Assembly: GCF_048128805.1 (NCBI RefSeq)
Contig: NC_136008.1
Location: 18,801,572-18,865,571 of the forward strand
Direction of reading: 5' to 3'
Length of the DNA: 64,000 nucleotides
Origin: Centroberyx gerrardi
Taxonomy: Eukaryota; Chordata; Actinopteri; Beryciformes; Berycidae
Numbering within the stretch: the first letter of the stretch is position 1; each line of letters starts with the position of its first letter. A model generated the notes under the pieces. It saw only the letters and a program-made list of their open reading frames with translations, was not told the origin of the DNA and ran no database searches. A program made the position numbers and the translations under genes. Below, one piece after another: positions 336-55,488 of the stretch.

Positions 336-2173
336 CCAGACTGTGTGTACTCCTGCATTACAGAGGCCACTCTCTGGACCAGCTGACCTGTGGGGATTGG
401 CTCCTGGTAAACCAGGAAGTACTGCTGGGCCAACTTCCTGGCTCGACGCACTAAAACCCTGCAAGGAGGACACAACTCATTAAACCTTCTGTGAGTGTGT
501 GTGTGTACACAAGACATAGAGCTAGCTTTGGGGTTTTCTCACCAATGACCAACACTTTAGGCAGTCTTTGGTCCAGAATAACCACCAACACCTGACAATA
601 AACACCGGCATAACTTACTTATCATAGACTCATTCTGTAAAAAGCCACCTTGATTCTGTTCCCTCTAACCCTCTCTCCTGACATACTCACATACAACTAC
701 ACTCAAACACACACTTGTAGAAAGTCTTATGCCAGTGGCACTCACTCTCCTTTCAAACACACGTGGACACACTCCCTACCTGTAGTCAGGTCCCATGCCG
801 CTGTAGACCATGCCTATGTGTTTGGTGATGGGTTCCACCTTGTGAACGCTCTGCTCATCATACAGGATGGACTTCTGTTTCTTCTCTGTCGCCAGGACAA
901 CTCCATTGGAAGCTGAAAGTGAAAGAGAATATATACCATAGTCAAGTGTATAATAATAATATATATAAATATATTATAATAACTTTTAATAGTTTCTCTA
1001 ATCAGTTTCAACTATGCTTTGACACGCCCAGGCGGATCAATAGCTAGAAGCAAGACAAAACAAACTCCACAGGTTCTGCAAATTAAAAACTGATTTAATT
1101 CAACACACAAAAAATAGTATTTCCTGATGTTTAGGTGTACCATAAAGATGTACAACAAAACATATATATATATTTTTATCCTTAACAATAACAAGCCATT
1201 GTAATAAATTATTTTTTAACTTCTTTTATTAATAGTGCCTTAAACTTCCCTCTTGTACAGCCAAAGTTCTTAAATTGTGTCAGTTTGGGACCCAAATAGG
1301 TAGATGTAAATTAAACGTTTGTCCCAGGCTCATGGAAAACATATTACTATTCACATGAGAACCCACCAGAAGTAGGTTCATGACCCATTTTGGGCCCCAA
1401 ACCCATAGTTTAAGAGAGACAGATTTCCAGGAATCCTTACCTTTGATCCCAACTGAGGGGGCTCCAGCTGCTACGGCTGCCAGGGCATATTCAATCTGGA
1501 CCAGTTTACCCGAAGGGCTGTGGGGAGAAATACAAGATGTTTCATAACTTTGCTGTGAAGCACTTTGTATAATATAAGTGTTCAAATAAACTACAAACTC
1601 TATAAGGATTAGGGAGGAGGGGCAAGAGTAGAGCATCAACTATAATGTTTTCGTAAAACAAGTACTGACACAGAGACAGCACTGTGCAAGCCAAACTGGC
1701 TAACACACATACAAAACTGAAAGCAAAAGCTGAATGGCTTCATTCTCATTTGAGCTAGCTAGGCTAACCTAGCCCGCTAGCGTGTGAAACAGGTTTGTTT
1801 CCGTCTGTTCCAGGGTGGAATCAAAAATCCCACAATTAAACCGTATTTATCACAGATAAAACAAAACGACTCGTTGCAATACCATTTTAACAGAGCACCG
1901 ATTTAACATTTTGACAGCAAACATGACAAACTTAGCAGACATGCTAACGGTACGCTTCATCCGTGCCCGGCAATGACAGTGCATCAACTACAACTGCACC
2001 CAAAACCTTCATTACAGGCCAAAAAGAAAAAAAGGACATACAATTTATGAAACAGTCATCCAAGAGCTACCATTACAGGACATGCGTTTGTGCCTATTTA
2101 TGATAATTCCTGACTATTCTGAAAAACTTTACCTAAATGTGGTGAGGGAGAAGCTGTATCCTCGTTCCGCCAT
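336..2173 (-). CDS. psma2: Proteasome 20S subunit alpha 2, N-terminal four coding exons (gene continues past window start)
   Basis: This is an alpha-ring subunit of the 20S proteasome core, which gates and frames the proteolytic chamber in cytosol and nucleus. Coding exons, in transcript order: 2133-2173 (starts [13 protein letters not shown]), 1441-1517 ([19 protein letters not shown]), 780-912 ([18 protein letters not shown] onward to GPDYR) and 336-458 ([20 protein letters not shown] onward to EYTQSG). Phases join cleanly (41+77+133+123 nt = 124 codons plus 2 nt) and every junction is AG/GT. The N-terminal alpha-subunit signature, [20 protein letters not shown], is intact. The vertebrate protein is about 234 aa, so roughly 110 C-terminal residues lie left of base 1. 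The start ATG (2173-2171) follows a CpG-containing leader and matches the family N-terminus. The gene is divergent from mrpl32, as in other vertebrates. No defect is visible in the part present. Confidence 0.97.
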
Positions 2174-4210: not shown

Positions 4211-5725
4211 ATGATGAATTTAGCCGCTTTAGTGCAGAGCCTCCGGCGGTCATTGCTACAGATCGAAAGCAGGCTTCAGCAGGCAGCGGGATTTGACAGA
4301 CATTTGGGTAAGTTTATATGACTGTACATGTTTATGTTAGCCACCGCTGGTCATGATGCTAACAAGCTAAGCGTCTTGCCTGATAATACTAACATGGTCC
4401 TGATGGAGTCAGATGCAGTCTCTCTCTCGCCTCTTTTTGGTAATAATATTCTGTGATATTTTAGTAGATTTAAGGATATTTTAGGTTATATATCTCTTTT
4501 AAACATTTTCCTTCATGTGAGCTTTGTTGTTGACCTACAGTACTGTTGACTACCTGCTGTCCTGTGCTCTGTCTTTGCCCCCTCACCCCTCCGCCATACA
4601 CACTCCAACATATTGCACTGTATTGGAAGTAACAGTACGTCTCTGTGCTCCCCTCTGTCCAGGTCCAGCGCTGGCAGTGAACGGGCCCGGCCTCCTGCCT
4701 CAGCTCCAGCCCCCGCTCGATGAGGACTGTCCCATGGGGGAACAGGAACAGGAGCAGCAGAGCCCGGAGCAGCCGCCTGGCGTCCTGGACGGCATCCTGT
4801 GGATGGCAGTACCCAAGAAAAGACGCACGATAGAGGTCAACCGCACCAGGAGGAGAGCCGACAGCAAACTCCTCAAAGTCAAGGTACAGGGAATAGGCTT
4901 GGGCATCAAATATTTTGGCTTGGAATCCCTTGATCAGTTGTGGGAGGAAACATAAAGAATGCACATATTAAGTATTTCAAAAGCAAAAATAATTTATACA
5001 TCAATATGTAAATATGCTTCTTTCACCTGCCAAACCTCTGAGAACCACAGATTAGATTACAGAAGATGTAACATTTCAAATTCAGTGTAGTGGATGATGA
5101 TATTCTTTGTTGAATGCTTTCAGTGTAACACAAGCTGTTTTTTTCTTTCTTTCTTCCTCTCCGCTATGCTATATATGGCCTAATTTTTGTCCAGTGTCTT
5201 GGTTGGATCTAGCATGCTGCTAACAGTAGATTATATTTATTTAACAATTGCATTTAATTGGCGCTTGTTTGAAAGAGACCAAGCAGTTCTACTCAGACAG
5301 TGTTCTTATTCATAGAACTAACTTTATTTCTGATTCTCTCTCTCACACACATTCTTTGTTCATCCCCCTCTCTGTGTTTCCCTCTTTTCTCTCTATCCCT
5401 GTGACCCTGCCACCACCACCACCACCACCACCACCACCACACACACACACACTCTGTTTTGTTCTCCCCCTCCCAGACCAACATTGAGCCATGTCTAGAG
5501 TGTGGCCACTTGAAGCAGAAGCACGTCCTGTGTGGTTTCTGTTATCAGAAGGTGTGTCGGGAGACCGCTCTGATTCGTGGGCAGATTAACTCCATGGAGG
5601 GCGGCCCGCTGAAGGCTCCCGCCGTGGAGACCATCGTCCTGTATGAGGGTGAGACGCCGAGCGAACAGGACAAAGACAGGAGGGTAGTGGAGAGGTCCAG
5701 GAAGCGGCCTGCCTGGTTCAGCTAA
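4211..5725 (+). CDS. mrpl32: Mitochondrial large ribosomal subunit protein bL32m
   Basis: This is a structural protein of the mitochondrial 54S/39S ribosomal subunit. Its N-terminus is an import and maturation segment; the family is known to be processed by the m-AAA protease. Exons: 4211-4307, 4663-4883 and 5477-5725, total 567 nt = 188 aa plus stop, the same length as the human protein as I recall it. Residues 1-45 are a basic leader ([15 protein letters not shown]). The core motif [20 protein letters not shown] follows, with [17 protein letters not shown] near residues 112-128. The four cysteines C112, C115, C125 and C128 form the expected zinc ribbon. The C-terminus, KRPAWFS, matches the family. 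The start is the first of two adjacent ATGs (4211, 4214). An upstream in-frame ATG at 4196 exists but would add residues unlike the family. All junctions are GT-AG and phases agree. Confidence 0.97.
5410..5441 (+). repeat. (CCA)n microsatellite running into (CA)n in the last mrpl32 intron
   Basis: A triplet CCA/ACC run is followed by CA repeats just upstream of the exon 3 acceptor (AG at 5475-5476). The repeat forms part of the long pyrimidine-rich tract before that acceptor. Confidence 0.85.
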
Positions 5726-9170: not shown

Positions 9171-10518
9171 ATGCATTGTGTGAGCAGAGGAGGCTGCTAC
9201 CTGGTGAACTCCCACTGTGATCTTCAGGAGGAAGACCAGTGGAGGAGAGAGAGCTACCAAGCCAGCTGGCTGAGCCTGGTCATGGAGACAAGACCACAGT
9301 ACAAGTAGGTGGAAGCTCTATTCTATTCTGTTCTATTCTATTTTACCTGATAATAGAGACAACATTTCAGTACAGCAGGTGGAGGCTGTATCCTAGAATC
9401 TATACTCTATCCTTCACTGTTACAAGACAGATAGATGGAGGTTCCACTTTGCTGAAATTCTGCTTTATTCTATGTATTCTAACGGTTTAAATTAGTTGCT
9501 GCAGTGCATGTACTGTTTTACATTCTCTCTATTATTTTAATAAGTGTGTTCCTTAGGTATTGTTCTTAGTTTCAGTTGCAGATAGGTATTGTGGGGAGAG
9601 ATGGTTGAGAAAGCCGGAACAGCATCGCATAAACAGCGGTTAGAGCCCATGTACTCATTATGCGCAATTGCACATAAGCACACGACACATACTGTATTAT
9701 ATTACACAATACATACTGTACATACTGTAATATACTAATATTCTAATGTACATACTGTACATACTATACACACATTATCAGAATGAGCTAGAAGGATTCC
9801 TCAGTGCCTGCAGGCCATGGCTCTGTTCTATACTTAATCTATAAAATGAAAATAAGACAACAGCACAGCGACAGAGACTGTGGATAGAGGCTTTTTTTTA
9901 ACCCTCCATGAACACTTTGAAGTTTTTAAGACAATAAAACAGACAGGAGAGAAGGTAGAGAAAGAGGGACAGCATGCCATATAGTGGGATTGGAGTCTAT
10001 GCTCTTCACATTAGACTGAAAACAGCCCCAACAGCTTGATACAGCTGTTCAAGTCTAAACTATCTCTGTACTCTTAACTGTTGTGGGTGTTGTCTGGTGA
10101 GTCATTATTACTGAAACTCGACCAAAATCATTTAACTAAAGTATGTAATGTAACATATCCCAGGCTGACGCTGGCAGAGAAAGACGTCGCTCGTAGAGAG
10201 AGCTATGAGCAGCAACAGGTGGTCCACTTCCTGGTTGAGAGGAGTCCCAGACAGATACTGAGGCTGGGCACCCAAGGGAGAGCCGTGACAGAGCACCAGC
10301 TGCCCCTCAGGACCAGGAGCGCCCCCGCCAGGGCAGAGTCTCCCTGGCACCCACATCCAACCGGATCCCCCATTGGGTGCCTGCAGGAGCGGGGGCCGGT
10401 CATACTAGAGAAGGAGGATAGTGGAGAAGTGACCAAGCCAATCAGAGAGAACTTCAGAGCCTCGAGCTTGATGTCCTCTCCAAGGGAAACCTCTCATAGG
10501 GTGCAGATGAGGGAGTGA
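9171..10518 (+). CDS. Probable two-exon gene of unknown function (162 aa)
   Basis: I do not recognise this protein. Exon 1 is 9171-9304 (ATG in context CACCATGC; begins MHCVSRGGCYLVNSHCDLQ) with donor GTAGGT. Exon 2 is 10164-10518, with acceptor CCCAG after a pyrimidine-containing tract, ending in TGA. The lengths (134 + 355 = 489 nt) keep the frame and give 162 aa. Exon 2 composition is protein-like and far less AT-rich than its surroundings: charged/polar LTLAEKDVARRESYEQQQ, then VVHFLVERSPRQIL, then a Pro/Ser/Arg-rich tail, probably disordered. There is no signal peptide, membrane segment or known motif. Exon 1 may really be an internal exon with an acceptor near 9188, so the true start could lie upstream. 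The gene lies between mrpl32 and ccdc127 and converges on ccdc127. It could be a lineage-specific or rapidly evolving gene. Confidence 0.5.
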
Positions 10519-15952: not shown

Positions 15953-26231
<10,279 letters not shown>

Positions 26232-30060: not shown

Positions 30061-32871
30061 CTCAGTGACACTAAAAACAAAATAATGAGAATAAGAAGAA
30101 GTATTATTATAGTATTATTATATGAACAGCAGCAGGATAATGCTATCATGAACTTAGAATTAATAGCAAAAAGATAAAACTGCATAATATCAAAATATCA
30201 AGAAAAATAACATGAACGAAAATAAATTGTACAAAAAAGGGTCAAACAAACGATGCAGATTATGTGTTAATTGGACAAGAAATGTAAGCCCAATAATGAT
30301 TAAAGTTTGCTTGCATCCAAGATTTGATTCCCACGAGGCAGTCAGAGGGGAGAGAGTGTGACAGCAGACTGGTGACCATGGCAGCGGGTGACATGAGGGG
30401 AGCCATGCAGGGAACGAAGAGAACATATTAGATTTGAGGAAAGACAGAAAGGGATGATGCCAATATGTGGTAAATTTCCTCCAAATGCTTGCAGGACGGA
30501 CAAATCAGTGTCCCGGATAAGAACAATGTAACCCAGTGTGACGGGGATAGCAGTAGGATCCAGGAGCCTCGGGACAGAGGGGGAAATCTAACCTTGGTCT
30601 CTTTGTTCCGGCTCTTTTGGTGTGCTGTGTTGCTCTCATGTTGCTATGATTTGATTCTGGGTGCGTTTGGTGAGGAACGAGGCCGTGCAGTGATGCTGCG
30701 TCAGCACATCATCAGCCAAGAACCACGGCATGCTAAAGGTGGATATAGGTACAATCGAAAGTGTTTTTTAGTCCACTTGCATAACTTACTCATTCATGTT
30801 AATATCCATGTTGTAGACTCCAGTGACTGGCTGAGGAAGGCATTTTATAATATTTTATTTTAAGCCCAACAGGTAGAAACTCCCTCATGTATATTCTCTA
30901 ACCTTTAACCTTTCAATAATGATTATTTTATTCTAACATGATGTGTGTATTTTATTTTAGTTTATCTTGATGGTGCAATTGGGGTGCAGATGCTGTGGAT
31001 TTAAGTGATTTAAATCTTACAAGGTACATTAACGCGCATGTTGGTTTTACAAATATGTGATCATTTCCTTTTCTCTGTATTTATTGCTAATATTCATTTC
31101 CCCCACATTAGAATAACTTGACTTTTAGTCTCAACATGCCTGTTGCTCTGGGCTAATACAGGGCCGGGCAGTAGGGTGTCCAGAGTGACTCTTAAGTGCA
31201 TGGTTTGTAATATCCCAGTGTGGTGTGACAAACCAAATAACATGGTGTGTGTAACCACTTTAATGTAATTTGTTAGCCCTACGTCAACTGTGTGCCGGGA
31301 AACCAGTATGACACCCTTTGTTGTTGCTTATTCTGATTCACTAGCATACTTAAGCAGCACGTGTGTCAGTGATTAAATTACATGTCAGCTTTCATAAAGG
31401 GAAACCTCAGAGGAGCCGTACCTACAGTAAGAACGGAGGCCATGACAGATATCTGGGTATGATAAAATAAATCAGCTTGTACTTAAGAAGCTTTTATGTC
31501 CAATTTAACCTTTCTTGCACTGGAATTGATAGATGACATTCCCACTGAATGTCATCAAAGTGTCAATGTGATCCTGAGCCACTCTTTCTCAACTCCTGAA
31601 CAGCAGACGTCTACAGCAGGACACTGATGATGTCACTGCTATGCTAACCTGTTAAAGATCTAATCCATAACTGCAGAATGGCACCCCACATTGCAAAACC
31701 TTTTTTTACATAATGATTTATTGGATTTCAGACATTTTTTCACTCTAAAATTCATTGTCGGAGCTTTTGATACAAGATGTGTATGGTATGGGACAACAAA
31801 ACCTGAATTTAAAAATGGTGTTGTGAGGCTACAAACGGTTTGTTTACATTCATAATAATTGTAAACAATGGGGTAAATTAGACCTGTTTTTGCATTATTT
31901 GGCATTAAGAAAGTTCCCAAAAGCTTATCATCTACATGTTACATCTTTATATGTCAATAATGTCAATAGACCCAAAATTTAGATGGTCAATTCAAAATTT
32001 TAAATTGCCCATTCCCCTCTAAGCTTATTGTGAGTCTTGTTTGGTTTCAAGATTTTAATTAAGTGATGATTGCCAGAATGCACCATGAATATGCTGTACA
32101 GTAGCAATATGATCTGGAGATCAATTTAAAACATGCTGCCTCATGGCACAAGTCTTCTTGATCATGTAGATTGAATTAATGGACCAGGTGCATAAAATTG
32201 GTAGATGCCTTCTTCAACATCGTTACCCAGTGTCCCACAGTGCAAAGCGTCCAAACGTCAGTATCTGCTCTGAACAGTTCAGTACTTAGACCAAGAGGAC
32301 TGAATGGCATCAGTCCAGGAGGCGGCCATCTTTATGCACTTGAGGCATTTAACTTATTTTTTAAATGTGTCAGCTTTTGCTATGAGAAGCTGGATAAAAA
32401 CCTAAGATGTGCAAACTTACCACAAACAACATGATCAGGAGTCAGAGGTCACAGGTTCCCAAAACGCCCTCATGAGCAAAGAGGCCGAGCCTCAGTGTGT
32501 GTTTACTGTTCTAATTTCATTAAAACTATAACTGTGTTTTTAGTGTTTCTCTAATATGTTTAATATGCTGTTGTGGATGTATCTGTCCCATATAAAAAAA
32601 AAACCATTCTACATACAGTAGGCACAGGTATATAGGTATACATAGGCAAAACAGGAAAAGAGGAGTTAAGGAGTTAATATTTTACAGACAGCAATCAACA
32701 TTCAAAACATCCTCAGAGATTAAACCTATAAAAAGGAAATCATGTTTTCCAACTGGCATTTAGTGCATACAGGATAGGCAGCAGAACACAAATATGGTAA
32801 AACAAGAAAATATTTTCAAATGGTATAAAAGTGTTACAAAATTCATGGTTAGAAATTAGGCCATAGCAGCA

Positions 32872-32877
32872 TTTAAT
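32872..32877 (-). terminator. Possible ATTAAA poly(A) signal after the duplicate CD225 exon
   Basis: TTTAAT on the plus strand is ATTAAA on the minus strand, 184 nt beyond the TAA that closes the exon copy at 33061. It is a variant signal and weak evidence on its own. Confidence 0.25.
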
Positions 32878-33060: not shown

Positions 33061-33300
33061 CTAGGTAACCTTACATGATAAATAACTTTTACTGTAATTT
33101 AGTCCAGAACGAATTGGGGGGCATTTTTGTCCTAATTCTCGCGAGTCTCTAGTGTTAAGTGTTAAACTGTTAAAAACTCTACAAGATGCAGAAGAAGAAG
33201 TCCCGGTCCCGATGCCCAGGGCGGCGTTGTTGAAATGACGAGCCAGAGAGCTGCTGTGAGCAGCAGCCAGGCGGTCCCCGCGCTGCACCGCTCTCCTGGT
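33061..33300 (-). CDS. Duplicate or alternative terminal exon of the CD225 gene
   Basis: On the minus strand a strong acceptor (CTCTCTTGCAG, AG at 33302-33301) opens a 240-nt frame beginning TRRAVQRGDRLAAAHSSSLA and continuing RHFNNAALGIGTG, 79 codons plus stop. It aligns without gaps to the normal last exon ([32 protein letters not shown]) at 14 of 31 residues, including GD, the SS pair, N and LGIG. It begins in phase 0, as needed to splice onto exon 2 (phase 0 end at 60238). After LGIGTG the frame turns Ser-rich instead of forming the second membrane segment. A +1 frame reads LLLLHLVEFLTV and stops. It may be an alternative 3' exon, a remnant of a tandem paralogue, or a decaying copy. No matching second copy of exon 2 is visible nearby. 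Confidence 0.6.
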   Translation of the reverse strand, partial: TRRAVQRGDRLAAAHSSSLARHFNNAALGIGTGTSSSASCRVFNSLTLNTRDSRELGQKCPPIRSGLNYSKSYLSCKVT

Positions 33301-33320
33301 CTGCAAGAGAGGGAGAGAGA

Positions 33321-33380
33321 GGAGGGAGGAGGAGAGGAGAGGAGAGGAGAGGAGAGGAGAGGAGAGGAGAGGAGAGGAGA
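33321..33380 (+). repeat. (GAGAG)n microsatellite
   Basis: GGAGA/GAGAG pentamers repeat about ten times. On the minus strand this is a CTCTC tract about 20 bases upstream of the duplicate-exon acceptor at 33301, and it may serve as an extended pyrimidine tract. Confidence 0.88.
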
Positions 33381-36315
33381 GACGGCAGAGAGAAGGGAAG
33401 AGTCAGGGAGAAGAAGGGGACAAGGTGAGAGGGAGGGGAGAGAAAAGTACAAAATTGAGGATATTCAGGGGAGGAAAGGGATGGGCGCTGGGGGAAGGGA
33501 CAGGAGAGGAGGTTTTTTTTTCTTTATTTTTCTTCCTCACATCATACATTGCTGCTTTATTGAGTTGCCTTGACATCTTGAGGTTGAGTCTGTTCTTTCT
33601 CTACAGCAGACACGTCACAATGTGGGGAAAAGCTTCTGCGCTGCCACTAAAATCAACTGAAACTGTTACTTATAATTTCAGCACTGTAAACATGCCTTAT
33701 TCAAACCAAAGGGAGCGAGCTGCACCCACTGGCTGAACTACAGTAGAAATGTTCTTCCATAAGAAACTAAAAATCTAAATATCGAGACCTCTTATCATTC
33801 ATCATCATATATACACTTTTAAACATTTAAAACCAAATTTCTTTTTGTTTTCAGTTCTTTGCAACTGCATCACACATGACAATTATGGAATAAGCCATGA
33901 TATCTTAATATATGAAATATCAGAATATACAATCTAAGGCCAGAGACAGATAAATGCTTGATATGTCACAGAAATACAAGATTATATGCTCATGCACTGG
34001 ATATAAATGTAAAATAAAATCTATGCTTTTGATATTGACCAACTGTGTTAAAGTTGTTGTGGGGAAAGCGTAACTTTTTTTTGGATACAAAGTTCCAGCT
34101 GGACCTTACAAGCTCAATAAGTGACAGAAATATGAAATACTTAATTTTTATTTTTATTATTTTGCATAGAAAACATTTGTGCACACAGCTCTTCCCGTCC
34201 TACAGCCTGTCGTCTAGTAAAAGTCTTGTAGCCTGCAATAGCAGTTCATACAACAAAGAATACTGATTTGTTCCATCTCATCTCCAATAAATCTAAAACC
34301 AACTCCAGACAAATTTCAGATCTCAGGAATTACAGAATAAATGATGACAGATGAGAAGCAGACATGGATGATTGGTACGACACTTAGAGGAAAGACGACA
34401 CTCATCCTGAAATTAGTAGCTGGTCATTTTATTTTCTCGTCTCTAACTTGCTCTAATGAAGCCAGATTCTCTCCATCAAACGCTAAGTCAACAGAGAGAG
34501 AGGGAACAATCTGGCTAGTGAGATCAAACAGTAAATTTGGAAAACAACTGCTTTTTGACACTAAACTAAATCCATCAAAAGGAACTGTACACAGTACCAA
34601 CAAGTTCTGTACAGTGCCAAGGAACAGTTCATGTGATTACAACTCAAAGCACCAAATTTTGAAACTCCATTAAGAAATCTTTGCTTTATTATGTTCATCT
34701 ACAGTTCAGTACCGTTGCTGCCAAGGTCAGGCATGAAATCACAAGGCAGTTTAAGTACACAGCCAACTGCACACTGTATTCTGTCTGCTTCTGACCCGCA
34801 GTGTTTTTACTGCAGAGATGCAAATAGCAGATAAAGCAGATAAGTTGCAACTTTATTTTCCCCTAGGGACAAAGATAAATGCTCTTATGTAATGGGACAA
34901 ACTTCGTTATAAACTAGTGCTGGTCTGGTAAATGTCATATTAAGGAACAAGAGGGCACAAGAGGTTTTTTCTTTCAATATACTTTGAACTTTATTCATAA
35001 AGAAATTCAGTATACAGTAAAATCCTTTTTCAGTTATGGTTATGAAAAGAACATACACACATGGCGTGACGAACAACACCCAGTCAGGTGATCGATAAGC
35101 CACTACAGCTTTCAAAATAGTTGAGCCGGAGCCATCGATTGAGAGTTTTAACACTATACAGCTGACAGCGGCAGCCATGTTGGCTCCACAATCCTACTTC
35201 ACAGCTGCTGTTGCTAAGTCTCTGGTGATTCTCTGAGAAGCAGCGCGCTCCTGTCCAGCTTGAGAGAGGAAGAGGACTCTGGCGCTCAACTCTGGCCCAA
35301 AGCGTCACGTCATGGACACTTCAAAAGCACTTTCACATTAGATCTGATGACAAACAGGCTGACACACTCTTCAGCGCCTTTGTCTCTCTTTCCATGGGCA
35401 TTTTTGAAGTGTCCTACATTAGTCGTTCTATATTGGTTATTCTTTGTCAGAATATTTTTAGGATGTCGGGCCTCTCACCATGCTGATGTTATAGAGGGTG
35501 TTGTTGCATATTTACAGCCAGCAACTTCGATTAAAAGGGGCAGCTACATTTTGCCCATAGTACAATCTAATCAAACTCCCTATCGGAGGCTGAGCTAAGC
35601 AACACTGAAATCAATTTTAACTGAACACAAAACTTGAATTGCTTTGGATAATGCTTGAAATCTGCATGTGTGGTGGAACGACACTGAACTGAAGCTGAAC
35701 TCCTCAGATGAATTTTTAAGGCATCAACGTTAACAACAATTTTAGACGTGGGATAATATAAAAGCAAGTCACAAACAAACAGTTTGGATGAAAATATGCA
35801 TCTTTGGAAAAGTTGTAGCAGTTGCTCCCTTTGGTTGTGTGTGTGTGTGTGTGTATAATCAATTACTTATTGATACAGAAATAAGTATAACGCAGGATCT
35901 CAGAGTACAGATATCTAAATTGCAGATATTTAGATTACGCAGTCAAATGTTTGAAGGCAAAAAGGCATTTGACTGAAACACTGGGTGCTAGTGGTTCAGC
36001 AGTGTGATCATTTGAGTAATCTATTGCATTTCAAAAGGGATTACAATTTTAATCATGTAATTAATCATCTGCAATGGATTACCTCTCCACTACACACCCC
36101 GTGTGTGTAGAGGAGAGGTACTCACTCCATTTTACACCCTGGAATGAATTTAACCAAACACATAACTGATATTGGTGATGTACCAATGGGGCAGTTTAAC
36201 CAATCAGGTGATTTTTTCTTCAGGGGTACCAATGTCCAATAGAAATGCTTCTTGAAGATCAATAATGTTAGCCAGTGTAGAATGAGAAAAGGGATTGGGA
36301 CTACGGAAAAGGGAA
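33381..36315. other. Interval between the two CD225 terminal exons
   Basis: AT-rich sequence with no convincing exon on either strand. The 3' UTR of the normal last exon should start at 36315. Candidate minus-strand signals are ATTAAA (36048-36053) and AATAAA (34990-34995). A hairpin with near-perfect 17-bp arms lies at 36081-36119. Confidence 0.4.
36081..36119. repeat. Hairpin, 17-bp arms, 5-base loop
   Basis: ACCTCTCCACTACACAC at 36081-36097 pairs with 36103-36119, with one mismatch. It lies in the probable 3' UTR of the CD225 gene. Confidence 0.85.
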
Positions 36316-49924: not shown

Positions 49925-52900
49925 TAGATGCATGCACGTACACACACATTTCAACAGACTTAGAAGAAAACGAAACCTACGGAGAGAGCATGAGGGTGTG
50001 AGCCTTGGGCAATTGGTGGAATCAAAACTTAAGAATAAAGGCTTCATGATGGATAACTGGGCTGAGACCCATGTTGAGATAAACAACATATGACAAGCAG
50101 AGTTACAGAGATAAACATCAACAACTCTCTCTCTCTTTCACCCTCTATGATGTACAGTAGTACAGTACAGGTTAGTACGTTTTTCAACTTTCAACATAGG
50201 ATCCAGAAAAAAGATTTAGTCACACCCTTGAAAATATACATGTAGATATGTCTTGTGGGTTACCACAGAGAGACATATGACCCATAGTTTACGGAACCTT
50301 TTTATCAATCACTCCATCTGACATCCTGTTGACAGCGAACAGGATGTGACTACACCGACTGATTAACTCAATAAAGCACATCAACTCATATTGGCACTTC
50401 CCACATGGATCCACTGAAAAAAAGCTACAGCTGAATGCACAGCAACACTTAAGGTCTGTGTGGAGGCACACACTTGATCTCGCCGTGACTGTTTAAACAG
50501 CAAAACCACATGGAATTTTTTTCCTCTGTTTAGACAGCCATGATTCGCGTGTGCCATGAAAGAGTCGATCTATGCTGCAAACGGTTAGACATCAGATTTT
50601 TCTGTTGCCGTGTAAAGGCGGCCAAAGTTAAATTCACTGAACTGAGCCGCGGTGATAGATGCCACAGTGTCGTGTATTGTACTAAACTATGAGTGGAACA
50701 TCTATGATGACTATGACTGTATATGGTCACAGACTCTGGCTTGGATCTTAAGAATCTCTCGTAAATGAGGCATGTGGTGCGACCACTATGGGATTTTGAA
50801 GGCCGATACCGATGCCAATACCAATATTTTTTTACCTGAGGCTGCCAATAGTCAATATTTTGCGCCAATATTCAATATCTTTAAATGTGACTGTTTTACG
50901 CCCCCCAAAATGACAAGTATTTAACATTACTGCCTTTAAATGAAGAATGAATAATAAATAGAATAAAATGTGAAAAAAATCATAATTGCAGGTACAGACA
51001 GTTACAGACAGTTTTTATGTGTCTGTGGTCAGGGTGGAGCCTCCATCACATTGGCGGTGGATATCCGATATTCGATATTTAATAGATTAGGCTTTTCCAC
51101 ATGCACTGTAAATCATACCCTATGTAGTGGAGGGGGGTGAGGATGTGGGCCGGTGGAGTACAGGGTCAGATACAGGTTAGCAAGTGAGAGTTATAGTTGT
51201 AAGTCTATAGAAACCTGAGGCGAGATGAGTCAGGCTGAGTGAAACAGAATCTCCTAACAATGGTTATGATATTTCCCTTCATGCTCCTTATAGCAGGCCG
51301 TCAGTATCTGAAACCCTGAGAACTATGAGGCTGCTCTGGTGCTTAGTTCAGTGGTTCAGTGAAGCTCTACTCAAGTACTTTAAACATTTCAGACTACTTT
51401 AGAAAAATATTTTCTCCCTGCCTCTGGACTTCCTCAGCCATTAGTGACAGCAGAGCAACTGCCATATAATGTAGTGGTAAAATAGAAGCTGGCCAAACTA
51501 TGAACTCTATGTTGACCATAAAATGAAAAGGCACAGGCAAAATGGTACTTAAAAAAAAAAAATAGTGTTATTTAATGTTTTAAAGCTGCACTGGACAAGA
51601 TTTTATATAAAAACTACACTCGTCTTATCAGCCTGAATCACAAAGTGGAGTTGCAGCAGAGAAGAGCGTCCCATTCCCCTAATTGAGACCCAGTAGTTTC
51701 GCCCTAGCTGCCCAAATGAAATTCTGGTGTCGGGTAAGGACACTAACACCCACGGGTAGTGATGCACTGAAACACAAACTGCAAAATACAAACTGTTTCC
51801 TAAAGAGCAGTGAGTTAGCGCTCTGTCCAGAGGAAGCTGGTCTCACCAATGTAAGATCTTGTTCCTTTTTCTGTCATTTGGTATCCTTTGGTATAAAGTG
51901 ATCACAGACCAATCGGGTTGGTAAACATGAGCTTGCCTTGCAGGTAACTTGCTGCACCATGTACAACAAAATCACAATGAAAAACTACTGTTGGTGGTAT
52001 ATGGCTAAATGTTGCATTTGAGTCTTAAATATGGTTTCAGAGACTTAAAAACGTATCAGTTTCTCTTTGCACTACTTTTCTAGTGAGAAATTTCACTGGT
52101 TACGCAGATGTATACTTTACTGTTTTTTTGTTGTTTTGTTTTGTTTGTTTTTTACTCTTCAGGCTTATTTGGGGATGCAATTATTCTAAAATGATATTTG
52201 AACTGGCATTAAAAAGTAAGTAAGTAAGCTTTATTTATATAGCACTTTTCAAAAACAAGTTACAAAGTGCTTTACAAAGACATAAAAACAAGAGAAATTA
52301 CCAGATAAAAAATAAAAGTAGAATTGATACAGTAATCATGACAAGCGAGGTATGGATTACAAAAACACAATAAAACAAATAAAATAAAATGGAAGAGTAA
52401 CCGATTCAAGAGAAAGCAATTCTGAAAAAGTGCGTTTTTAAGAGAGAATTGAAAGAAGAAACAGAGCTGGCCTGCCTGATCTCCTCCGGCAGGACGTTCC
52501 AGAGTCGTGGGGCCGTGATTCCAAAGGCTCGTTCTCCTCTGGTTTTTAGCCTTGACCTAGGGATTACTAACAGACCTCTGCCGGAGGATCTCAGGCTGCA
52601 TTTAGGCTTGTAAATTAAGTCAGAGATATAATCCGGGGCCAACCCCAAATGTGCTTTAAAAGTAATCATTAAAATTTTAAAATCAATTCTAAAAACGTAC
52701 AGGTAACCAGTGTAGAGATGCTAAAATAGGCGTTATGTGGGCTCTCCTATTGGATTTTGTGAGTAGTCTTGCTGCAGCATTTTGAACTAGCTGGAGTTTG
52801 GAGAGGTTGTATTGAGAGAGACAGGAATACAGCGAGTAATAGTCTAAGCGGGATGAAATGGAAGCGTGGATAACAGTTTCTAGATTCTTAGCGGATAAAA

Positions 52901-55488
52901 AAGATCTAATTTTCGAGATATTACGAAGTTGCAGAAAGCACAATTTAACGACTGACTTCACCTGCTGGTCAAAGTTAAGTTTGTTATCAAAGATAACACC
53001 CAAATTTCTGCACTGGGGTTTGATGCAACAGGATAGAGAACCTAAGTGAGAGGAGAAATGCTCGCTGGAGGGGTCCGGACCTATGATAATGGCTTCTGAT
53101 TTATCTGAGTTTAGCTGAAGAAAGTTTTGAGAGAGCCAGTTTTTAACATCTGTAAGACAGGATTGTATTTTGACCAGTTGTGTTGTGTTGTTGGAGTCAA
53201 ACGAGAAATAGATCTGGGAGTCGTCCGCATAAAAATGGAAACTGATGTACTTATGAAAGATTTGACCTAGCGGTAACATATAAATGGAGAATAAGAAAGG
53301 GCCAAGGACTGAGCCTTGAGGCACTCCATAGGAAAAATGGGAGGAGGAGGATTTAAAGTTACCAATGGCCACACAGAATTTCCTATTAGAAAGATAGGAA
53401 CAAAACCAATCTAAAACTGTACCTGATAAGCCAACCCAGTGCTTAAGACGTTCAATTAAAATCACATGGTCAACTGTATCAAAAGCTGCAGTAAGATCTA
53501 AAAGCAATAAAACAGATGTTAGGCCATTGTCAGCTGCTAAAAGAATATCATTGAGAACTCTAAGAAGTGCTGTCTCAGTGCTATGACCCGCCCTAAAACC
53601 TGACTGAAATTTATCAAAGAGCCCGTTGCCATTCATATGATCGATGAGCTGACCAGCGACTATTTTACCAAGACCTTAGCCAGGAAGGGAAGTTTAGATA
53701 TTGGGCGGAAGTTATTTTTAAAACGGATGAATCAAGAGATGGCTTTTTGAGAAGTGGTTGAACTGTAGCGGATTTAAAATAATCAGGCACTTGACCAGAT
53801 AAAAGTGAGGAATTGATAATGGCCAGGACAAATGGGGAGATTGAATGAAATATTTCTTTAAAGAAGTGAGTTGGAAGAAAGTCCAGTGAACAGGAGGATG
53901 ACTTCATTTTAGTAATGACATTGGTTAGATGCTTAGTAGTGACTGACTTAAATGCTAGCAGGGTGCAAGGTGTTTTATAGCAAAGGTCAGGGAGAGTTTG
54001 AGAAGGAGGGATAATTGCATTCCTAACAGCTTGAACCTTATTCTAAAAAAAACTCTTCGCATTTATCAACTGAGGGCTCAATAAAAAGTGGGGGAGGGTT
54101 TGTGGTGTGGTTGATTATATCGAAGAGGCGTCTGGGGTCATGTTTATGTTTAGCTATAAGATCCGAAAAATAATTAGTACGTCCAATTTTAACCTCCAAG
54201 TTAAAATTTTTCATGTAATCCTTCAGCCTTTCAAGATGAGTGGGAAAAAAAGGGCTTATAAAGTTTAAATTTAACTTGCAGAAACCTATAGTCACCCTAT
54301 TTATGGTTTGCACTTTTTTGTTTTTAGTTTTCCCTCAGAAATAAAAGGGATTTTTTCAGTCATAATTGTCTTTATTCATATTTTGTTCAAAATATTGAAC
54401 CGTGAACCCAGTATCATGAACCCAACCGTTAGCTGAATGCATTGTCACATTCCAAACTTAATATAATATACTTATACAATGAAACAATATCATTGAGATT
54501 TTTATATCTGCCCTTGAACAAAGCTCATACATGTGTATCGTACTGGTGCAAGAACAATCCTGGAAGCAGAGGCTGAATAAGGTAGCTAGCTGGTTCACTG
54601 CTCCTAACCCAACTACAATGCAGTCACAGTCCATGTCTCCTAGGATACAGGCGCCACTCTAATACTATATCACTTTATATTTTCCATGAGTAGATGCCTC
54701 CCTTAATGGACTTTAATCTGTACATATTATCAGGGTGCCTGTGTGGCCTGTGCTCTGATGTACTCTAATAACAGAGTCTGTGGTCATTGATCAGATGACA
54801 CAGTAATAGAAACGATAGCCTTACACAAATACGCCCATATAAACAGTGTGTAGTCACAGGCACATGCACATACACAAACTTTATGACTGTGATTTTTGAG
54901 CGTCAAGGTGAATATTTAAACCAAAATGTGGACTAAGGCTGCGTTCACATGTAGCGTTATTTTCCCCCAACTGCCAGCGCTTCTTTGTCATCAAAAGCAA
55001 TGGGAAGCTGCCGCAAGGCGCACAAAAGGCTGTTTCCCATAACAACAACAAAGATGGAGAAAGTGCCGGTGGAGAAATTGGTCGTTGTAATAAGGGAATT
55101 TCTGTTATGCTGGACGTGTATTGGGAATATCTGGTAAGCCTTTGCTTGTTGCTCAACACTGTATTGTCTGTTAGAAGTGCTAATCAGCTGGTTAGCAGCT
55201 AGCCAGCTGCTCAGCTAATGTCAGATGACGTTATCCTGATCCGCTTTTTATTTCTCCTCACAAAAAGCACTCCAGGCAGCACTTTTTCTACACAGAAAAC
55301 GCTGTGTGAACGCAGCCTAAGGCTAAAAATTGTGTTTAATATCTGCTGCTTTAGTGGGCATGTCACAATAACTTCTTCATCCCATGCTTAACCAAGAACC
55401 ATTCAGCGACAAACTTATACCTTCCCAAACTGAGTTCCCTTGAGACTACACAGACATGACATGCAGCCAACAGAATGTATGTATGTAT

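Follow-up and report, generated by a model that had tools for sequence, protein, structure and literature searches.

The window analysed here, the whole 64-kb stretch of DNA from contig C12 of an assembly that, judging by its content, is probably that of a bony fish, carries on its minus strand a CD225 gene of three exons, joined throughout in phase 0 and encoding a product of 175 residues (Table 1). This product scores 84.4 bits against the CD225 domain profile (PF04505; curated cut-off 27.1 bits), and an exon border falls inside the domain. The second intron of the gene spans 23.8 kb and accommodates an open reading frame for a reverse transcriptase (RVT_1, 97.3 bits; 52689-53675, minus strand), just upstream of which lies another open reading frame (53665-54042) in a different frame. 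Elsewhere on the plus strand of the window are an open reading frame matching telethonin (TCAP; 10078-10518, 44.3 bits) and two FAD_binding_2 open reading frames (20150-22719; 36.9 and 55.5 bits), which we take to be exons of sdha. Two further matches score below their respective cut-offs, namely a proteasome alpha N-terminal signature (1280-1639, minus strand; 22 bits against 27.7) and an L32p-like ribosomal protein (5405-5725, plus strand; 17.1 bits against 21.3).

Table 1. Exons of the CD225 gene and parts of the additional terminal exon (positions are those of the window).
Feature	Position	Strand	Basis
Exon 1 (coding part; Pro-rich N-terminus)	62092-61958	minus	ends CAG/GTAGGC (slash marks the exon end), phase 0
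Exon 2 (Cys-rich first hydrophobic segment; profile positions 2-29 of 68)	60477-60238	minus	donor GTGAGT
Exon 3, normal terminal exon (loop, membrane helix and stop codon)	36468-36316	minus	Pfam 31.3 bits, profile positions 32-67; acceptor ranks 1 of 4371
Pyrimidine-rich tandem repeat forming the acceptor tract of the copy	33301-33443	minus	TCTCC-type repeat at 33307-33381, weaker up to 33443
Duplicate terminal exon, conserved part (31 phase-0 codons homologous to the loop half of exon 3)	33300-33208	minus	alignment, Pfam, tblastn, assembly search
Putative degraded membrane-helix half of the copy	33207-33162	minus	non-hydrophobic in the acceptor frame; hydrophobic only after a one-base shift, to a stop at 33164-33162; alignment ambiguous
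Rest of the open frame of the hypothetical 204-residue product (GC-poor; probably non-coding)	33161-33061	minus	tail GC 0.355; 114 of 3000 resampled tails open

About 3.2 kb downstream of exon 3, and beginning at the same splice position, the window contains a second copy of this exon, the first 31 codons of which are a genuine homologue of the gene's own terminal exon. A reading made earlier from the sequence alone had described a gapless, phase-0 alignment with the normal last exon, and this holds: 14 of the 31 residues are identical (45%), including GD, SS, N and LGIG, and the ungapped BLOSUM62 score of 66 was reached by none of 20,000 shuffles, compared with a score of 25 for the best place on either strand of the window besides exon 3 and the copy. 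With exon 3 as the tblastn query, the copy was recovered at E = 6e-5 and the next match at 0.26. The Pfam CD225 model also recognises the copy alone, both as the full frame of 79 residues (E = 0.0078, 16.8 bits, profile positions 31-63) and as its 31 conserved residues (E = 0.0037, 17.8 bits, profile positions 31-61). The match starts at the intron position of the domain (profile position 31); it covers half a domain only, and both scores lie under the curated cut-off of 27.1 bits. Joined to exon 2, the copy completes a CD225 domain of 72.7 bits, compared with 85.9 bits for exon 2 joined to exon 3. Searches with the copy alone gave no match among solved structures at E <= 10, an NCBIfam search returned nothing informative, and no DNA homology was found between the flanks of the copy and those of exon 3 beyond purine/pyrimidine repeats. 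Chance resemblance to exon 3 is rejected by the tblastn result, by the shuffles and window scan, and by the assembly search described below. What we find is thus an exon homologous to its neighbour, in the same phase and with an acceptor of its own, as expected of a tandem duplicated terminal exon.

The 3' splice site of the copy ranks second among the 4371 minus-strand AGs, behind that of exon 3 itself, when scored with a splice-site frequency matrix. The strong acceptor and phase 0 that the sequence-only reading ascribed to the copy are borne out, with the proviso that most of the pyrimidine tract consists of a TCTCC-type tandem repeat (33307-33381, less marked up to 33443), so that the strength of the acceptor is partly owed to the repeat. 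Exon 2 can be joined in one and the same phase to exon 3 or to the copy, and computed splicing from 60238 to 33300 yields the 204-residue protein that had been predicted, ending at a stop codon at 33063-33061. The frame set by the acceptor is open for 79 codons, the 31 homologous ones being followed by 46 further codons that were counted in the tail test. Just 114 of 3000 resampled tails (3.8%) stay open for these 46 codons, which is uncommon by chance, not compelling, and mildly favours the sequence-only reading. As regards a reading of the copy as an internal exon, nine GTs follow its codon 20, and three of them are GTA followed by a purine (33182, 33092 and 33074). Eight AATAAA signals and one ATTAAA separate the exon 3 stop from the copy, which allows the normal transcript to end ahead of the copy; the first ATTAAA past the copy is at 32877 and the first AATAAA at 31722.

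Several comparisons bear on whether the copy has been under selection as protein-coding sequence. Its identities with exon 3 by codon position are 18, 21 and 13 of 31, which is the order expected under protein selection, and the fraction of codons with matching third positions is 0.42, where composition predicts 0.32, which makes the duplication an old one. The residues kept in the copy sit in the more conserved columns of nine other family members (mean 4.5 vs 2.3; reached by 579 of 20,000 permutations), these being the members left besides exon 3 once the PRRT1 sequence from the PDB and one of two exons from contig C4 had been dropped as near-duplicates. Counting against constraint, an Arg present in eight of the nine members is Ser in the copy. 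The GC content of the 31 codons is 0.68, a value reached in 12 of 2062 bins of the window, the copy's own included; the other bins lie over the telethonin-like open reading frame and over CD225 exons 2 and 3. In simulations with strict matching criteria, a copy that was neutral throughout fits in 21-30 of 1500 runs at best, as against 120-171 for a constrained or relaxed one, and with looser criteria the difference is about twofold (0.217 at best for a neutral copy vs up to 0.465 for the others). When a dead time was simulated, the fits fell from 119 of 1500 with none to 85 at 0.2 and 25 at 0.5 substitutions per site; the simulations hardly separate a copy that is alive from one that has been dead for up to 0.2 substitutions per site. 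With moderate confidence, then, we take the first 31 codons to reflect past protein constraint, such that long use of the exon is favoured, whether or not that use continues.

The second half of the copy presents a different picture. Similarity to the family stops where the loop ends, and in the acceptor frame there is no C-terminal membrane helix beyond this point: the peak 19-residue hydropathy is 0.49, compared with 2.6 for exon 3. To this extent the Ser-rich C-terminus without a clear membrane helix described in the sequence-only reading is confirmed. Its further proposal, that an alternative terminal exon would switch the topology of a CD225 protein, is not supported, since the omission of one base past the loop gives a tail that resembles that of exon 3 (similarity score 17, compared with -16 in frame) and raises its hydropathy to 1.83. 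Among 5000 resampled tails, 26 matched or exceeded the score of 17 in one or other of the registers tried. The helix half aligns ambiguously, with codon-position identities of 3, 10 and 0 of 12 in the shifted register as against 2, 3 and 1 in the acceptor frame. Joined to exon 2, the three tail registers score 72.7 bits (in frame), 75.8 bits (one-base shift) and 73.7 bits (the opposite shift) in Pfam. A global DNA alignment of the helix half favours another register, which would run into an early stop. No register gives a hydrophobic helix half without a change of frame, and we therefore read the Ser-rich C-terminus as degradation and not as a topology switch; loss of frame in the membrane half explains the tail at least as well, and the sequence-only interpretation as a whole is partly supported.

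Our preferred interpretation, which we hold to be reasonably probable, is that the copy is a tandem duplicate of the third and terminal exon that probably once served as an alternative last exon and is now most likely disabled or decaying. The third exon of this CD225/dispanin gene, presumably the exon rather than the gene, would have been duplicated in tandem, the copy would long have been usable as an alternative last exon, and its membrane-helix half would have lost its frame, with the use of the exon presumably now lost as well. That the copy is disabled is judged most likely because its helix half lacks hydrophobicity when read in the acceptor frame. Standing against disablement, neither the acceptor nor the first 31 codons are damaged, and these codons contain no stop, so any such loss would be recent or partial. 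Were the copy still spliced in, the product would consist of the Pro-rich N-terminus, the Cys-rich hydrophobic segment and the loop, lacking the C-terminal membrane helix, and its loop would retain an Arg at exon position 2 and a small-xxx-small pair at positions 8 and 12.

The same tail admits another explanation, in which the copy is a working alternative terminal exon with an intact helix and the one-base offset reflects an assembly error or an indel polymorphism; the real exon would then code for about 45 residues, a diverged loop and helix used in place of exon 3. Consistent with this, the shifted tail is hydrophobic, scores 17 against that of exon 3 and reaches its stop after 45 codons (exon 3 has 50), and the 31 codons, with their codon-position pattern of constraint, and the acceptor are intact. 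However, the shifted helix contains His and Glu, identities at codon positions 1 and 3 are 3 and 0 of 12, the conserved Arg has been lost from the copy and its branch is long (see below). We consider a live exon of this kind unlikely.

More doubtful again is the possibility that the exon works as the sequence-only reading described it, producing a 204-residue protein without the C-terminal helix, of changed topology, which might regulate the normal protein either in soluble form or when bound peripherally. Here the acceptor, the phase and the 79-codon frame are all intact, the last 46 codons of which remain open in no more than 114 of 3000 resampled tails, and the spacing of the retained Arg (position 2) and the two small residues (positions 8 and 12) matches that of R85, G91 and G95 in IFITM3. 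We infer this placement of the copy's positions on the IFITM3 residues from sequence; the residues themselves have been tied to SNARE-like binding and oligomerisation, as described in two papers (PMC11730294; PMC7665892). Two features weigh against such a product: a low GC content (0.355) in the tail past the homologous stretch, and a family resemblance that breaks off at the point of frame loss. If an ancient alternative last exon were still spliced in, the gene would give rise to a membrane-anchored protein together with an unanchored, built-in antagonist that keeps the loop residues linked to SNARE-like binding and oligomerisation, and competition between this unanchored form and the normal product is conceivable; we give this scenario a correspondingly slim chance.

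The origin of the copy was addressed by comparison with the rest of the assembly. A search of all 779 Mb with 33 residues of the copy returned, at E <= 10, only the copy itself and exon 3, in a procedure in which two candidates passed the first look and distant relatives can be missed. Terminal exons for comparison were placed by hand on the conserved Gly and comprised 11 from this assembly (exon 3 included, and two from the C4 cluster) together with the PRRT1 sequence from the PDB; those of the loci on C15, C18 and C8 are missing from the set, as they were not found in the stretches fetched. The copy scores 66 against exon 3, 55 against the PRRT1 exon on C19, 53 against the PDB PRRT1 and no more than 34 against any other, and origin from another CD225 locus is rejected on these scores. 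Trees of 31 columns and 13 terminal exons join the copy to exon 3, if with modest support (SH-like 0.85, ultrafast bootstrap 56), and most of the change lies on the copy, the branch lengths of copy and exon 3 being 0.85 vs 0.12 with FastTree and 1.41 vs about 0 with IQ-TREE.

The upstream exons tell in the same direction. No second exon 2 was found in the window, either by tblastn or by an exon-2 pattern scan that matched the gene's own exon only; a single CD225 exon 2 was reported on C12, where only the best candidates were scored; and the flanks, 20 kb above and 10 kb below the window, gave weak matches only (best E 0.007 over 18 residues). A filter for upstream exons, loosened until the true exon 2 was recovered, left 17 candidates between 33301 and 60237 in four 500-base bins, and the best candidate in each of the four was inspected and none was CD225-like, by which a separate upstream exon set owning the copy is rejected. 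A separate tandem paralogue would have exons 1 and 2 of its own, and no such second exon 2 was detected in the window or among the best C12 candidates, the 30 kb of flanks giving nothing beyond weak matches. The absence of a second exon 2 noted in the sequence-only reading, and its preference for exon duplication over a whole paralogue, have both stood up: since exon 3 is the single other match in the assembly at E <= 10 and a second exon 2 was not detected in the window or on C12, the simplest explanation is that the terminal exon was duplicated in tandem, and the evidence speaks for a duplicated last exon in preference to a paralogous gene that survives.

A variant of the paralogue idea, in which the copy is all that remains of a tandem gene that lost its exons 1 and 2 by deletion, appears very unlikely to us. 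Identity between the copy and exon 3 (14/31) is no higher than that of exon 3 with the C6 gene at 19.05 Mb (14/31), with 12/31 for the PRRT1 gene on C19, and CD225 genes do cluster in this genome, with 13 of the 32 listed Pfam matches lying within about 77 kb on C4 (8963764-9040741). Against this stand the lack of any exon-2 signature besides the gene's own in the window or among the best candidates scored on C12, and the weakness of the matches in the flanks. The C4 cluster has IFITM-like terminal exons, and two of its 13 matches contain a stop. Viral contigs gave two pattern matches and no relative of the CD225 gene.

If the exon is live, the gene would offer a natural pair of anchored and unanchored isoforms in a family where SNARE-like binding and oligomerisation have been linked to the loop and helix. 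If instead it is a decaying duplicate, it would be an ordinary but clean case of an alternative terminal exon being lost, and it carries the warning that an apparent 'topology switch' can be loss of frame. A keyword search for literature combining IFITM or CD225 with alternative last or terminal exons or with exon duplication found none.

The duplicated terminal exon is nonetheless of a well-known kind. Protein ends are enriched in tandem duplicated exon substitution events, which frequently coincide with membrane helices (PMC9741552), and duplicated or mutually exclusive terminal exons are exemplified by the 3' exons of TPM1 (PMC9741552) and by Drosophila pip (PMC9013439). The present pair resembles these in consisting of adjacent homologous exons in the same phase, each of which can be joined to the same upstream exon; it differs from them in that the copy has no helix in frame, shares 45% identity over 31 residues and is a candidate known from genomic sequence alone. 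With the CD225/dispanin family (IFITM, PRRT1/SynDIG4, PRRT2, TUSC5) the gene shares a full CD225 domain with an exon border inside it, and the copy covers the second half of the profile, whereas the copy by itself has no helix and scores under the cut-off of the family. A closer match to PRRT1 is found on C19 (39 of 45 residues shared with PDB 9zks chain M), so the gene described here is not PRRT1. Finally, the copy is like a pseudo-exon derived from exon duplication in being homologous to its parent exon, in having apparently lost its frame in part and in its long branch, and unlike one in that its splice acceptor and 31 codons are still intact.
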